Below are positions 1,601 to 63,848 of a stretch of DNA of 64,000 nt, one piece after another. Location of the stretch: positions 102,388,064-102,452,063 of the forward strand of contig JAVIAB010000092.1 in assembly GCA_032433765.1 (NCBI GenBank). The letters run 5' to 3'. The stretch is from Megaustenia siamemsis. Lineage: Eukaryota; Mollusca; Gastropoda; Stylommatophora; Ariophantidae. The stretch's first letter is position 1. Each line of letters opens with the position of its first letter. Made by a program: the position numbers and the translations under genes. The notes under the pieces were generated by a model that worked only from the letters and a program-made list of their open reading frames with translations, had not been told where the DNA came from and did no database searches.

Positions 1601-27881
<26,281 letters not shown>

Positions 27882-29367: not shown

Positions 29368-29720
29368 TGCTGTGGTCTTTCTTATTTTCTTTTGCTATCC
29401 GATGTTTACTTGAAGGACTGACGCTGGAGTCTTCTTTTTTTTGTTTATTCAGAGCATGTAACGTGATGTAACTGATGTACTTCCAGCGTCTTCTCCGTAT
29501 ATAGCTTGATTCGTATTCTTGTTTGATTTCTTCTCTTGTAGTTTCATTTTGTGTTATGTCTCTCCAATGTATGTTTTATTCATCGGAGATAGGATAACGT
29601 AATATGGCAACGGTTGAGGCTTCCAGAAGAACAAAAGCTAGAACCTTGACTTTCCCTCAACTCGACACCGAAAGTGGCTAAAAGGAAATAAAGAAACATA
29701 GGGAGAAACATTTGTTTCAT
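27882..29720. other. Region upstream of PHM exon 1
   Basis: Expected to hold the PHM leader exon and promoter, but no exon or TATA-type promoter could be fixed. A GATTAGATTAG-rich patch (28080-28125) and a (TG)n plus T run (29330-29369) are present. A 151-codon open frame at 28847-29302 (-) has no recognised motif and is probably chance. Confidence 0.35.
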
Positions 29721-30772
29721 AGCGCAAGCAATTAGCGACGGATCACTGATTATAGCGCAAGCAATTAGCGACGGATCACTGATTATAGCGCAAGCAATTA
29801 GCGACGGATCACTGATTATAGCGCAAGCAATTAGCGACGGATCTCTGATTATAGCGCAAGCTATTAGCGACGGATCACTGATTATAGCGCAAGCAATTAG
29901 CAACGGATCACTGATTATAGCGCAAGCAATTAGCGACGGATCACTGATTATAGCACAAGCAATTAGCAACGGATCACTGATTATAGCGCAAGCAATTAGC
30001 GACGGATCACTGATTATAGCGCAAGCAATTAGCAACGGATCACTGATTATAGCGCAAGCATTTAGCAACGGATCACTGATTATAGCGCAATCAATTAGCG
30101 ACGGATCACTAATTATAGCGCAAGCAATTAGCGACGGATCACTGATCATACCGCAAGCAATTAGCGATGGATCACTGATAAAAGCGCAAGCAGTTAACGA
30201 TGGATCACTGATAAAAGCGCAAGCAATTAGCGATGGATCACTGATCATAGTGCAAGCAAGTAGCGACGGATCACTGATAAAAGCGCAAGCAATTAGCGAT
30301 GGATCACTGATCATAGTGCAAGCAAGTAGCGACGGATCACTGATAAAAGCGCAAGCAATTAGCGATGGATCACTGATAAAAGCGCAAGCAATTAGCGACG
30401 GATCACTGATAAAAGCGCAAGCAGTTAGCGATGGATCACTGATCATAGTGCAAACAAGTAGCGACGGATCACTGATCATAGCGCAAGCAATTAGCGACGG
30501 ATCACTGATCACAGTGCAAGCAGTTAGCGACGGATAACTGATCATAGCGCAAGCAGTTAGCAACTGGATCACTGATCATAGCGCAAGCAGTTAGCGACGG
30601 ATCACTGATCATAGCGCAAGCAGTTAGCGACGGATCACTGATCACAGTGCAAGCAGTTAGCGACGGATCACTGATCACAGTGCAAGCAGTTAGCGACGGA
30701 TCACTGATCACAGTGCAAGCAGTTAGCGACGGATCACTGATAAAAGCGCAGAAATTAGCGACGGATCACTAA
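29721..30772. repeat. 33-bp minisatellite, about 32 units
   Basis: Units AGCGCAAGCAATTAGCGACG plus GATCACTGATTAT, 33 bp. Variants fall in blocks: TTATAGCGC units up to about 30150, then alternating ATAAAAGCGC and ATCATAGTGC units, then ATCACAGTGC units. Since 33 is a multiple of three, an 11-residue repeat stays open on both strands (minus SDPSLIACAII, plus ISDGSLIIAQA). Not called a gene. Confidence 0.95.
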
Positions 30773-30827
30773 TCAACGTGAATACAATTGTTTGAGGTAT
30801 TGGCTCCCCGCTTGGGAATTCACCTGG

Positions 30828-39030: not shown

Positions 39031-39890
39031 AAGGAAAAAAAAAGAAAAATAAGCTGTTAGTATTTTCTTTCTCTGAAAGTCTTCCTTTCATGGTCTCACG
39101 ACAGGTATTCATACTTTTGAATTGTTTTTGTAGCTTGTGTCAATTGCCCGTGTCCCTTCTTACATAAGGCACCTTTTTAGGCAGCTATATAAAGTGCATG
39201 TACAGTTATTTTATTCCTGCAATAATCATTCTATATTTGTTTCTACTTTCTGAACCTTAGTGTTCGACACGAGGAGTTAGTCTTTGTGTATGATCAATTT
39301 TAAATATATTTTACGTGAGGACACATAAAAAAAAAAATACGCACACATTTCCATTAAAATCTGTGGAGAGATCTCGATATGAGTGGTGAAATGTTTAACA
39401 AGAAAAAAACTTTAAAATCAGCAGAAGAATTAAAATCAGAAATGATGTTAGCACTAATTTTATAGCTGTATCTTGTAACAAACACGAAGAGTGGTGTCTT
39501 GAGAAAGAAAGATAACTAGCCACCTTTAGGTGTCATGGGACGTCATGGGACGCACCAAAATGGCAGCTTATTTATATTCGAGCTATGGACCAAGCAATGT
39601 TTGCATTGAACAACACGATAAATGTTATTGCTGCGAGTTGGCAGATTTTTGAAACTGTTTTCAAGGGTTTGAACATAAATATTTGTTCATAGTTCGTTGA
39701 CCTTCGCTGTAGATAAAGTCGTTAATTGGATGGCATCGTTTGAGACGTTGGTAGCTAGGGACCTAACTTGTGCAAGCGGATGGCATTGGCAAGGATCATT
39801 TTGAATCTATGAAGTGGGCTCATTGTGTGTTTAACTCAAACGCATGTGTGCTTTTTAACCAAAGACTTTTTTTTGGGGGGACTCAATGCA
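39031..39890. other. Upstream flank of the Cys-rich open segment
   Basis: May contain earlier exons of the gene that follows. An ATG at 39571 opens a 30-codon Cys-containing frame but has no clear donor, so no exon is called. Confidence 0.35.
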
Positions 39891-39891
39891 G

Positions 39892-40561
39892 ATATCCCCG
39901 ATGGAAGAATGAATTGTACTGTTGGTCCCATAAATGATTCGCTTCCAGAGGTTTATGATGTAAACAAAGCAGTTTTGTCATTGCAAGTGAATGATGTCCA
40001 CACCTATAATTGGTCAGGATTGTGTAGCAGCAGCAGCTTTATAGCGAACACAGAAAACATCACAGGATTGTGCTGTTCTGAAACAGCTATGCCATGCTAC
40101 CCTAGAATTGCCTTTAATGGGATTACTGTGACCACAAACCACTCTCCATGTGTGTGCCACATATTTACACCCCAGAAAGAAATACTGAATATAACAACAC
40201 CATGTGCCGTCTGTGATATTAATGACTACAGACCAGGAGCCTCCAGTATGATTGATACAACTGTTGCACCAAGCACTTCATCAGCAGAGCCATATCTATG
40301 GAATGTTAATCTGACATTGTTCTTGAATGATGTCCAAGTTAATGAGACATCAAAATCGTGTGGCGGCAGCTACAAGAAGGGAGCGGAGAACATCAAGTTC
40401 TGCTGCTATAAAGGAGACTTGCCTTGCTATCCCAGAATTGCCTTAAATGGAATCACTGTAGTTGAAAACGTCTCCTCTTGTGTAAACTACACATTCACAT
40501 CTAAGAGTGAATCAGTGAAGGTCACAAAATCATATTCTCTCTGTGGTTTTACTAACTACAG
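39892..40561 (+). CDS. Unrecognised secreted-type protein exon: two tandem Cys-rich domains
   Basis: An open stretch runs through to a stop at 40694. Two copies of an about 90-residue domain (nt 39966-40232 and 40296-40562) share the pattern NDV...C...NI..CC....PCYPRIA.NGITV....SC...FT...C....YR; the PCYPRIA motifs are exactly 110 residues apart. Six cysteines are shared; two more occur only in the first domain. Ten N-glycosylation sequons (e.g. NCT, NWS, NIT, NLT, NYT) point to an extracellular or lumenal protein. A Thr/Ser-rich linker (TTVAPSTSSAEP) separates the domains. No signal peptide precedes it, and AATGCAG at 39885-39891 and ACAG|GTCATG at 40561 look like splice sites, so it is probably an internal exon. 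Function unknown; I recognise no family. Exon edges are uncertain. Confidence 0.55.
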
Positions 40562-40694
40562 GTCATGTGGCTTCTGTTGGATTGGAAATGACAAATTACC
40601 ACCACTGTGTGTCTATATGTTTGGAATTGGAGTCATCAATGACGGCCTAACATCATCAAGTGCTATGACGATCATCATTTTCGGGAGGACGTGA

Positions 40695-41155
40695 ACTCCC
40701 ATGGTATATGGTGGATAGGCGGCAGGAACCATTGAAGGCTATGTCTGAAAAGTGTTCCTTCTTGCAGTTTCCTCATATTCCAAGTCCGGCTTGTTGCAGG
40801 AGCTACTGAGTTAAGTGCTCTGTGCACACCGTGAGCTGTGTGTCTCATCCGTTTTGATCCTGCTTCGATATCCCGCTTGTTTACGATGAATGATGATATC
40901 GTATGACAGGGAACAGTTGGCTGTGTTCACTTTCTGCGCGGTTTCGCCTTATGTCTTTTGGCGTGTGCTGAGACTGCTACGATGGGGACTACAGTTACCT
41001 TTCTTTGTTTGGGAGATGAGTTGGTAATTCGGATGATTCCACTGGCACGGGCGGTTGAGCAATTATGGATTTTAATTCGTTTGCTGTGATGCCGAGGCCT
41101 TCCATAACCAATAACCAATAACCAATAGGTGTCAAAAGCTGCTACAAACTGATTT
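40695..41155. other. Nothing recognised
   Basis: GC-richer than its surroundings; contains ATAACCAATAACCAATAACC triplication at about 41106-41125. Further exons of the gene upstream could be here but none can be supported. Confidence 0.4.
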
Positions 41156-41164
41156 GAAGGCGCG

Positions 41165-41432
41165 AAAAAAATCAGACAGCTCTGATTGTAATGTTTAACC
41201 AAAAAGACAAGAGTTATTATAAAATCAGACAGCTCTGATTGTAATGTTTAACCAACGAGACAAGAGTTATTATAAAATCAGACAACTCTGATTGTAATGT
41301 TTAACCAACGAGACAAGAGTTATAAAATCAGACAGCTCTGATTGTAATGTTTAACCAACGAGACAAGAGTTATTATAAAATCAGACAGCTCTGATTGTAA
41401 TGTTTAACCCACGAGACAAGAGTTATAATAAA
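41165..41432. repeat. 53-bp minisatellite, five units
   Basis: Units AAATCAGACAGCTCTGATTG plus TAATGTTTAACCAACGAGAC plus AAGAGTTATTAT; one unit is 3 bp shorter (AGTTAT for AGTTATTAT). Changes between units are few, so it is young. Confidence 0.93.
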
Positions 41433-45584: not shown

Positions 45585-47205
45585 GATCTATCTATTGGCC
45601 TTTCGAGCCGTAGCTGGCCCATAGGGCGTAGACCAAGATATTCCTTCATCTGAATTTTTGTTCTAGCAGTTTTCAATTCTTTTAAATATATATTATCAAA
45701 TCTCGCCATTTGTCTCTGTTCTCTGCAAGCAGCTCTATTTCATTGAGGGAGCCGATTCCTGCTGCTCCCGCCACTCTCATCAATGTTCTTCTCAGCGTCT
45801 CTCAGCGTCTTCATCTTTTCCTTTTACCTGTTGCTTCCCACATGAGGGCTTGCTTTGCTATTCGGTTATTATCTCTTCTCATCACATGTCCAACCATCGT
45901 CTTTTCTTTATTACTGAAGATATTAGTGGTTGATTGGCGATTTCTCTAATTTCCTCGTTTGTTTTGAATTCGTTCCACGCTATACCAAGTTTCTTTCCTT
46001 AGACATTTATTTTCGAATGCGTTCAACTTTGTTTCTACATCTCTTGTTTTTTTTTCCCCAGCTTTCACACGCATACGTAAGGGTTGATAGTACATTCGAA
46101 TAGAATAGTCTAAGTTTTGTGTTTGTGCTGATGAGTTTTGATTTCCACAACTTTTCAAGGCTTCTGAAAGACATTGCTGCTTTAGCTATTCTGATTCTAA
46201 TTTCTTTGCTTGTATCCCCTTCTCTATCAATGTGACTTCCAAGATAGATAAAGTGATCGATCTCTTCCACTGGTTTGTTTTCCATGTATATTTTGTCGTC
46301 TGTTGGAATTAAGCTTTTCATGACTTTAGTCTTTTCATGATTGATCTCAAACCCAATTTTGCTGGCTATTGATGATAGTTCATTTGTGTTTTCCTGCATA
46401 GTTTTTATCTGACTGCTGATGAGAACTATGTCGTCAGCAAAGTCGAGGTCCTCCAAATGGTCTCCTTGTATACATTCGATGCCTTTATTACCAGTGCAGC
46501 ATTTCTTCATTATGAAGTCCATAACAATTCCAAATAACAAGGGCGATAAAATACATCCTTGTTTAACCCCAGTTTCTATTGGGAAACATTCGCTCAGTCC
46601 TTCCTCTGTTCGAACTGCACATGTGAAACCATCATACATGTCTTTAATAATATTTATGATTTTTGATGGTAAGCCATATTGCTTCAGAATTTTCCACAAT
46701 GAATCTCGATGAATACTGTCAAATGCTTTTTTGAAGTCGATGAAGTTAAGTACAAAATGTTTTTGCTTTTCAATGTGTTCCTCCAATATAAGTCATAGAG
46801 TAAAAATGTGGTCAAGACAGCTTCTCCCTTTTCTAAACCCAGCCTGTTCTTCACGCATTACTGTATCTATTGAATCCTTTATTCTATTTAGGATGGTTTT
46901 GCAGAATAACTCTGAGGCAACTGACAAAAGTGTCACGCCTCTCCAGTTGTTACAATCTCTAAAATTGCCCTTTTTTGGAATCTTAACAATGATTCCTTTT
47001 TTTCCATTTATGAGGCGTCTTCTCTGCTTTCCAAATGATGTTGAACATTTTCTGGAGATGTATTAAATTATGGCTATCAATTGCCTTGAGGATCTCAGCT
47101 TGTTTCGTCGGTGCGGCCACTTTTCGTACATTCCAGAATCCTATTTTTGTTGTTGTTTTAGAGCCGAAAAAACTATCACTATTATCTACTGCTAATTTAC
47201 ACATT
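45585..47205 (-). mobile_element. LINE (family A), RT largely open
   Basis: On the minus strand an endonuclease start KIGFWNVRKVA (about 47140) is joined by deletion to RT: FVLNFIDFKKAFDSIHRDSL (about 46740), GVKQGCILSPLLFGIV (about 46570), LDFADDIVLISS (catalytic FADD, about 46440), YLGSHIDREGD (about 46230). The frame is open over 46007-46786, then frameshifted; 3' end has the GATAGATAGATCC tail at 45585. Most intact LINE in the window. Confidence 0.87.
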
Positions 47206-62790: not shown

Positions 62791-62929
62791 CTAGCAATAT
62801 ACAGCCAACACAGGTGTCAAATAATTTACTCAAATATTTTTTTTATTTGTAAAGAAGTATGATATTTATTTATAATTTTCAATATGTGTTCTCTGCGAAA
62901 TAAGAACATACCTGCTGAAGTTATGATGT

Positions 62930-63848
62930 TCTGATATGAAATTACAAGGAGTCAGACAAGGCTGTGTTCTGTCGCCGGATTTGTTTTCACTTTACATCGA
63001 ACATATTATGAGATCAATAGTAGATAAACAAGCAATTGAAGTCAACGGTCACAACGTAAATAATTTGCGATATGCGGATGACACAGTCTTAATAGCAGAG
63101 ACAGAAAATGAACTACAAGAACTGATAGACATAATAGTAAAAGAAAGCAACAAAAAAGGTCTCAGTCTGAATAGTAAGAAAATAGAAGTAATAGTCATAA
63201 CAAAGAAACAATTATCACCATCAAGCAGCATAAATATAAACAGGACAAATCTGAAGCAAGTGCAACGTGTCAAATACTTGGGCACAATAATAATATCAGA
63301 TGAAAGATGCACCACAGAAATAAAAGGCAGAATAGCTCAGGCCAAAATAACATTTCAGAAAATAAAAAATATTTTATGCAACAAATCTATGTAAATAGAA
63401 GTGAGAAAGAGAGTTCATCGGTGCTATATAGAACCAATTCTGACCTCTGGAAGCGAATCATGGACAGTAGACAAACAAATGAAAAGCCGATCAGAGGTCA
63501 CAGAGATGGGATTTCTCAGAAGAATGTTGAAAGTTCCCTGGACAGCTAAAAAGACCAATGAAGAAATTCTCAAAGAGACCAACACTGAACTCATAAAAAC
63601 ATCAGAAAAAAAAACAATCAACATTTTTCGGACACATCACGAGAAGAGGAAAGTTGGAATACTTGGTTACAACTGGCAAAATAAAAGGAAAGTGATATCG
63701 CGGACGACTAAGAGACAAAATATTGAATAGCTTGGTGTCATGGCATGGAAAACAGTCAACAACAGAACTCATACGATGTATTGTAGATAGAAGATTGTGG
63801 AAGGACAGGACGCCTACTCCAACCGGTATGGCACATGATGATGATGAT
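62930..63848 (+). mobile_element. LINE RT 3' half (family B), partly open, (ATG)n tail
   Basis: Open 62936-63394: GVRQGCVLSPDLFSLYIEHI, LRYADDTVLIAE (catalytic YADD, about 63072), LKQVQRVKYLGTIIISDERC and FQKIKNILCNKSM, then a frame break; WTVDKQMKSRSEVTEMGFLR and later residues follow in another frame. Ends ATGATGATGATGAT at 63833-63848. 5'-truncated. Lies upstream of the first SLC23 exon seen, in the opposite orientation. Confidence 0.85.

Follow-up and report, generated by a model that had tools for sequence, protein, structure and literature searches.

SVA and the other composite retroposons of apes are built from unlike parts, carry no reverse transcriptase of their own and are spread in trans by LINEs, at least as outlined in the two accounts drawn on here (PMC7353768, PMC4432496). 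Octopod repeats are rich in SINEs and LINEs, and tRNA-Core and tRNA-Deu families are named as the dominant SINEs in an octopod survey (PMC8967140). We analysed a stretch of 64,000 nucleotides (the window) from the gastropod Megaustenia siamemsis, which contains a copy of a dispersed element that resembles the ape composites in its lack of a reverse transcriptase, its probable spread in trans by a LINE and, perhaps, its assembly from unlike parts; its leader is common with a second family and its cargo is not. It differs from SVA, as outlined in those accounts, in a body that is an ectodomain-type coding frame once under selection, in its (AACCAAT)n tail and in the two cargo types found under one leader. 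Like the octopod SINEs of that survey, it is young, abundant and bears LINE-type insertion marks, which we take those SINEs to share; unlike them, it is 1.6 kb long, carries a protein frame and has no tRNA or Rfam match in the window.

Processed pseudogenes and retrogenes are coding sequences that have been copied via RNA and are flanked by target-site duplications. Set against these, the element has thousands of copies, its 5' end is uniform and its tail differs from poly(A), which together indicate that the copies themselves propagate. The best reading is a large non-autonomous retroposon with an ectodomain-type coding cargo of probably cellular origin; a homologous leader heads a second family with another cargo. 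The cysteine-rich double domain of the window is very probably the cargo of such a retroposon, spread by LINE-type machinery. A narrow literature search found no description of a retroposon family of this kind. In a genome like this one, gene annotation or a proteome search could list thousands of 'novel secreted glycoproteins' whose true nature is retroposon cargo. Should the two cargo families reflect a general habit, they would show retroposons of an animal multiplying ectodomain coding sequence behind a single leader.

The genome searched was the assembly from which the window comes (2.59 Gb, 155 contigs). A protein search with 223 residues returned 8,435 first-look candidates; the best 150, which were those scored, all have at least 95% identity and lie on 31 contigs. 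Only four of these 150 have a stop-containing frame, in a list picked by protein score. The genome contains 2,770 perfect matches to a 32-base probe from domain 2 (reversed control, 0) and 20,864 matches, with up to three mismatches, to a 25-base probe from the 3' end (control, 0). Comparison of the first eight loci defines a sharp-ended unit (39539-41126), with 97-98% identity within but not beyond it in most of L002-L008; in L004 and L006 the 5' end begins later than in the other loci. Relatives of the family at 84-89% identity, covering the 3' part, were found at two loci (L033 and L034). It is close to certain that the element is mobile: a young, high-copy retroposon with thousands of copies. 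The sequence-only reading had taken the frame for a gene standing out from dead repeats and had named a transposon match as an observation that would count against it. The whole unit is itself a dispersed repeat, and copy number together with insertion anatomy amounts in substance to such a match, reached without similarity to a known transposon protein.

Table 1. Parts of the retroposon copy and its insertion site, in positions of the window
Feature	Position	Strand	Basis
Left target-site duplication, TAGGTGTCA	39527..39535	.	sequence, repeat family D6
Retroposon copy, ~1.59 kb, full length at the 5' end	39539..41126	+	identity span and ends mapped in 28 and 60 copies
5' leader common with the sister family; starts GACGTCATGGGACGC, then CAAAATGGC	39539..39783	+	homology
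Short leader frame, MDQAMFALNNTINVIAASW..., one stop in the window copy, doubtful coding	39585..39708	+	
T/G homopolymer tract, length varies among copies	39867..39880	+	
Cys-rich domain 1 of the cargo frame	39894..40229	+	frame and domain alignment
Cys-rich domain 2 of the cargo frame	40230..40562	+	frame and domain alignment
Remainder of the open frame, SCGFCWIGNDKLPPLCVYMFGIGV...FGRT	40563..40691	+	
3' non-coding region of the retroposon	40695..41105	+	copy comparison; 84-89% relatives at L033 and L034
(AACCAAT)3 tail	41106..41126	+	sequence; reached by 27/28 and 58/60 copies
Right target-site duplication, TAGGTGTCA, first T common to the tail	41126..41134	.	sequence

The ends of the element were mapped in two sets of copies. 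The first comprises 28 copies (the eight top protein hits, the window's included, and 20 picked from the list) and is biased to intact frames. Because of this bias, a second set was drawn of 60 copies out of 100 listed places of the 32-base probe, 40 on contig C1 and 20 on contig C8. Nineteen of the 28 copies in the first set begin within 8 nt of the element start and the other nine further in, at scattered points, while 27 reach the same 3' end with AACCAAT repeats. In the second set, 23 of 60 begin within 8 nt and 37 at positions 9-873, where some starts near 9-32 may be alignment edges and the 32-base probe hides deeper truncation; 58 of the 60 reach the 3' end. In 23 of 58 copies the insertion is bracketed by direct repeats of 8-15 nt, compared with none of 58 when the flanks were exchanged between copies. 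Automatic detection found no flanking repeat of 8 nt in the other 35, which may have imprecise ends or no repeat. The copy in the window has a 9-nt duplication on both sides (Table 1). A fixed tail, 5' truncation and target-site duplications are together the marks of LINE-type retroposition.

There is no reverse-transcriptase frame in the element and no second long frame in 39539-41126. In the window, ARAGORN found no tRNA and no Rfam family reached its gathering score, so the small-RNA head under Pol III expected of a SINE was not found. On these grounds we place the element among non-autonomous retroposons and apart from ordinary SINEs. LINE-type machinery would have acted in trans on its RNA and inserted copies at many places in the chromosomes through target-primed reverse transcription. 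This process fixes the 3' end with its tail of short repeats, often truncates the 5' end and creates short target-site duplications. We infer a LINE partner from these marks; a partner LINE with an (AACCAAT)n tail was not found, and three further 3' ends that we read belong to 5'-truncated copies of the same family. The start of the leader (GACGTCATGGGACGC, CAAAATGGC) is CRE-like and YY1-like by motif only. Elsewhere in the window are frames of other retroelements. Frames for a reverse transcriptase and a GIY-YIG domain lie on the minus strand at 6288-7771, presumably from a Penelope-like element, and pieces of LINE-type reverse-transcriptase frames occur at 46007-46792, 24288-24755 and 62927-63394, the first two with DUF6451.

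The cargo lies in an open frame of 293 codons on the plus strand (39813-40694). Among 100 copies of the window simulated with a first-order Markov model no open frame exceeds 209 codons, and the real window also holds other long frames derived from tandem repeats and retroelements. One such region, a 33-bp tandem repeat in 32 copies (29580-30775), has open frames of 281 codons (plus strand) and 331 codons (minus strand) which, judged by their make-up, are a repeat artefact. The core motifs of the two cargo domains, PCYPRIAFNGITV starting at 40092 and PCYPRIALNGITV starting at 40422, are 110 codons apart. The domains share 39% identity over 108 columns (E 1e-20 as a single comparison), and six of the nine cysteine-bearing columns are common to both. 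The frame contains ten sequons, where 5000 shuffles average 3.8 (P 0.0006). A third domain copy after domain 2 is not indicated, the alignment of the remainder of the frame with either domain being within shuffles. The two-domain architecture described by the sequence-only reading is thus real in its spacing, shared cysteines, sequons and open frame, and its interpretation as coding sequence of secreted type is supported as a reading; the protein would be a secreted one. The likeliest origin of the cargo is a cellular gene that encodes a secreted or surface cysteine-rich protein. The search for this source gene did not find it: the one repeat-avoiding pattern used matched two mutated repeat copies.

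Comparison of domain 1 with domain 2 (NG86) gives dN 0.47 and dS 0.94, with a bootstrap pN/pS of 0.48-0.90. Their BLOSUM score (226) was reached in none of 5000 neutral simulations at equal DNA divergence, the best of which scored 222. The plain identity of 44 was reached by some of the simulations (mean 35, best 49). Only 2.3% of the 5000 runs remained without a stop. These comparisons indicate that the domain duplication carries the trace of past protein-level selection, with a domain-to-domain dN/dS of 0.5; this selection is older than the recent amplification.

The earlier observation that the domains match no known family is borne out for Pfam at its cut-off, for the PDB by sequence and for the protein database within the length limits of the search. 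In the latter, the full frame had 82 candidates of 0.55-1.75x its length, none at E 1 or better, and a two-domain profile had 13 candidates, with no relative within the limits. This database includes animal proteins (46 DUF4590 proteins were found), and much longer proteins lay outside the length limits. The best PDB match (E 0.1) is to antibody light chains and is chance-like, and the two-domain profile had none. Scans of viral sequences and genome contigs found no relative of the domains, and a literature search with a piece of the core peptide found unrelated work only. AlphaFold2 models had mean pLDDT of 43 and 29 and gave no usable structure.

In Pfam no family was above cut-off, and the only lead was DUF4590 (PF15257, ERICH3), which matched domain 2 at E 0.044-0.06 and did not match domain 1. 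A profile of the two domains scores 30.3 against DUF4590 (maximum over 300 shuffles each: 19.7 with the columns shuffled, 18.3 with the template shuffled) and 29.7 against 21 real members of the family (maximum 18.3 in 200 shuffles). Domain 2 alone scores 36.1 and 33.7, values that have no shuffle null of their own, and domain 1 alone scores 15.4 and 16.1, within shuffles. The DUF4590 profile ranks the cargo frame first among the open stretches of the window (E 0.12). The family had been singled out beforehand as the best of 24,736 at E 0.05. The likeness lies in the weak match of domain 2, at 13.8-14.1 bits, whereas the gathering cut-off is 27. The same genome has an ordinary two-part DUF4590 match (L101 and L102, contig C41 58872504-58877313), probably the host ERICH3 gene. 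Against the domains, this gene has a Smith-Waterman score of 28, equalled by 127 of 1000 shuffles for domain 1 and 176 of 1000 for domain 2. We did not file the domain under DUF4590 because the genome's own member does not align with it beyond shuffles; the match is also below cut-off and was the best of 24,736 families.

A second family has a related leader. At one locus (L035, minus strand, 9527 downwards) the 5' end is 72% identical over 230 nt, with the first 20 bases the same, and after the leader follows a different cysteine-rich coding sequence, also of secreted type. At another (L103, positions 31-200) the leader is 72% identical to window 39614-39783 (E 1.7e-26). The sister cargo has 9,421 first-look candidates in the genome, and the 150 scored are all at least 93% identical. 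Its open frames often have 519 codons and at most 646. In L103 a frame of 519 codons (54-1610) runs from the leader region through EGF-like and possibly galactose-binding-like sequence, names that were assigned by eye, and in its last third is out of frame with the cysteine-rich sequence that follows. Pfam gives DUF7402 only for this cargo (E 0.02-0.04). The 3' part that the sister family has on contig C98 is matched by two minisatellite-rich stretches of the window (13383-14682 and 23724-24062).

The homologous leader raises the question of whether the two cargoes are related as well. The domains of the window could be a distant branch of the galactose-binding/EGF-type domain of the sister family, both families having come from transcripts of one cellular gene family, which we regard as possible rather than probable. 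Beside the leader, YPRIAFNGITV resembles YPNLSVNTIVV and CAVCDI resembles LTVCEV, with their order kept, and the summed global score is matched by 34 of 2000 shuffles, for a stretch chosen after the match had been seen. Taken singly, however, the global scores are equalled by 51 of 2000 shuffles for domain 1 and 182 of 2000 for domain 2, the local scores by 64 and 127 of 1000, and the profile comparison has a P-value of 0.071, its score being under the 95th percentile of 150 shuffles. Still speculatively, and with some doubt, one may envisage a retroposon superfamily whose vehicle is the common 5' leader and which has, more than once, acquired or diversified sequence coding for secreted cysteine-rich receptors. 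It would comprise at least two cargo families with thousands of copies, and its full-length sources may make protein or donate ectodomain sequence to host genes at new sites.

We also considered a two-exon gene in which the leader frame is joined to the domains across a supposed intron (39709-39891). Its GT is kept in all 34 copies that could be read there and its AG in all 33, and the phase is compatible. At the place of the MDQAMFALNNTINVIAASW leader frame the sister family has MLILNIALSVVTASW, signal-peptide-like by eye. This gene structure is unproven, the copies being too young for conserved GT and AG to mean much. It is weakened by a leader frame that, in 29 of 34 copies, is interrupted when read from its first ATG, by the absence of coding bias in the differences between the leader frame and the sister (11/42, 9/41 and 10/39 at codon positions 1-3) and by the homology of part of the supposed intron to open-frame sequence of L103.

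Whether the cargo frame is alive can be read from the drift among copies. Of the 60 copies in the second set, 42 span the frame and 11 of these are open. Their private substitutions (N147:S51:stop14) are close to the neutral expectation of 139.7:48.1:10.3, which was taken from the substitution spectrum of the non-coding parts. Variants found in two to three copies (N26:S10:stop3) and in at least four (N13:S4) are also at the neutral ratio, and divergence is alike at codon positions 1-3 (1.6, 1.9 and 1.6%). Pointing the other way, the frame diverges from the majority by only 1.7%, less than the 5' leader (3.1%), though not less than the 3' region (1.6%). A silent excess among the private substitutions of the first 28 copies (N14:S21:stop1) was set aside as a bias from their choice by protein score. 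No protein-level selection is thus visible during the amplification, and the simplest reading is that the cargo is a passenger in recent copies. Mild selection on source elements may have acted, variants in at least four copies numbering only 17. The claim of selection made from the sequence alone thus survives in part: the domain-to-domain ratio argues for selection at some past time, and the idea of a unique gene under selection gives way to copies drifting at the neutral ratio. Purifying selection would have acted on the cargo until the recent burst, after which it drifted as a passenger.

These data also bear on a different role for the frame, as a working protein of the element (ORF1-like or accessory) that full-length sources would express and that transposition would require. 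The domains diverged under selection, the per-site majority of the frame has no stop, and short indels divisible by three are in surplus (13 of 38 within the frame, 0 of 18 in the 3' region), some of them 3-nt changes in an AGC run. The long open frames of the sister family, such as that of L103, point in the same direction. Against this role stand the neutral ratios of the shared variants and the even divergence of the codon positions. The majority of the first 28 copies has ATA at 39909, where the window has an early ATG. Upstream of the domains the copies differ in frame (27 of 28 readable) and share no in-frame start, because the T/G tract varies in length between them. The sole junction to a LINE endonuclease-reverse transcriptase frame is a nested insertion. 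We consider a working protein unlikely, and favor cargo of a non-autonomous retroposon.

The weakest alternative, hardly credible here, is an exon of a host gene for a secreted protein that carries or adjoins a repeat: AG precedes 39892, GT follows 40561 and TACAG ends both domain units, but AG (39890-39891) and GT (40562-40563) are only fair splice sites (83rd and 90th percentile among all AG and GT of the window, by a simple weight matrix), the 670 nt between them are not divisible by three, the exon-like stretch is itself part of the repeat and recurs with it in the copies, and at the window locus insertion anatomy and copy number in effect refute this reading.

The junction mentioned above is on contig C98, where one copy runs into a frame for endonuclease, reverse transcriptase and RNase H (EN-RT-RNase H). 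The corresponding interpretation of the cargo as a LINE ORF1 was rejected, because this LINE ends in a (GATA)n tail, is bounded on both sides by a ACGATCTACCA duplication and is absent from two other tandem copies, which identifies a nested insertion. The three copies (L029-L031, ~18.524-18.554 Mb) lie in an array of 6-10-kb units; all pass into foreign sequence at element position 1135, and one of them has the nested LINE. In the window, a 53-bp tandem repeat of five copies (41168-41432) begins just past the right target-site duplication, and each of its units contains a 19-nt stretch that is 79% identical to 39847-39865 inside the element.
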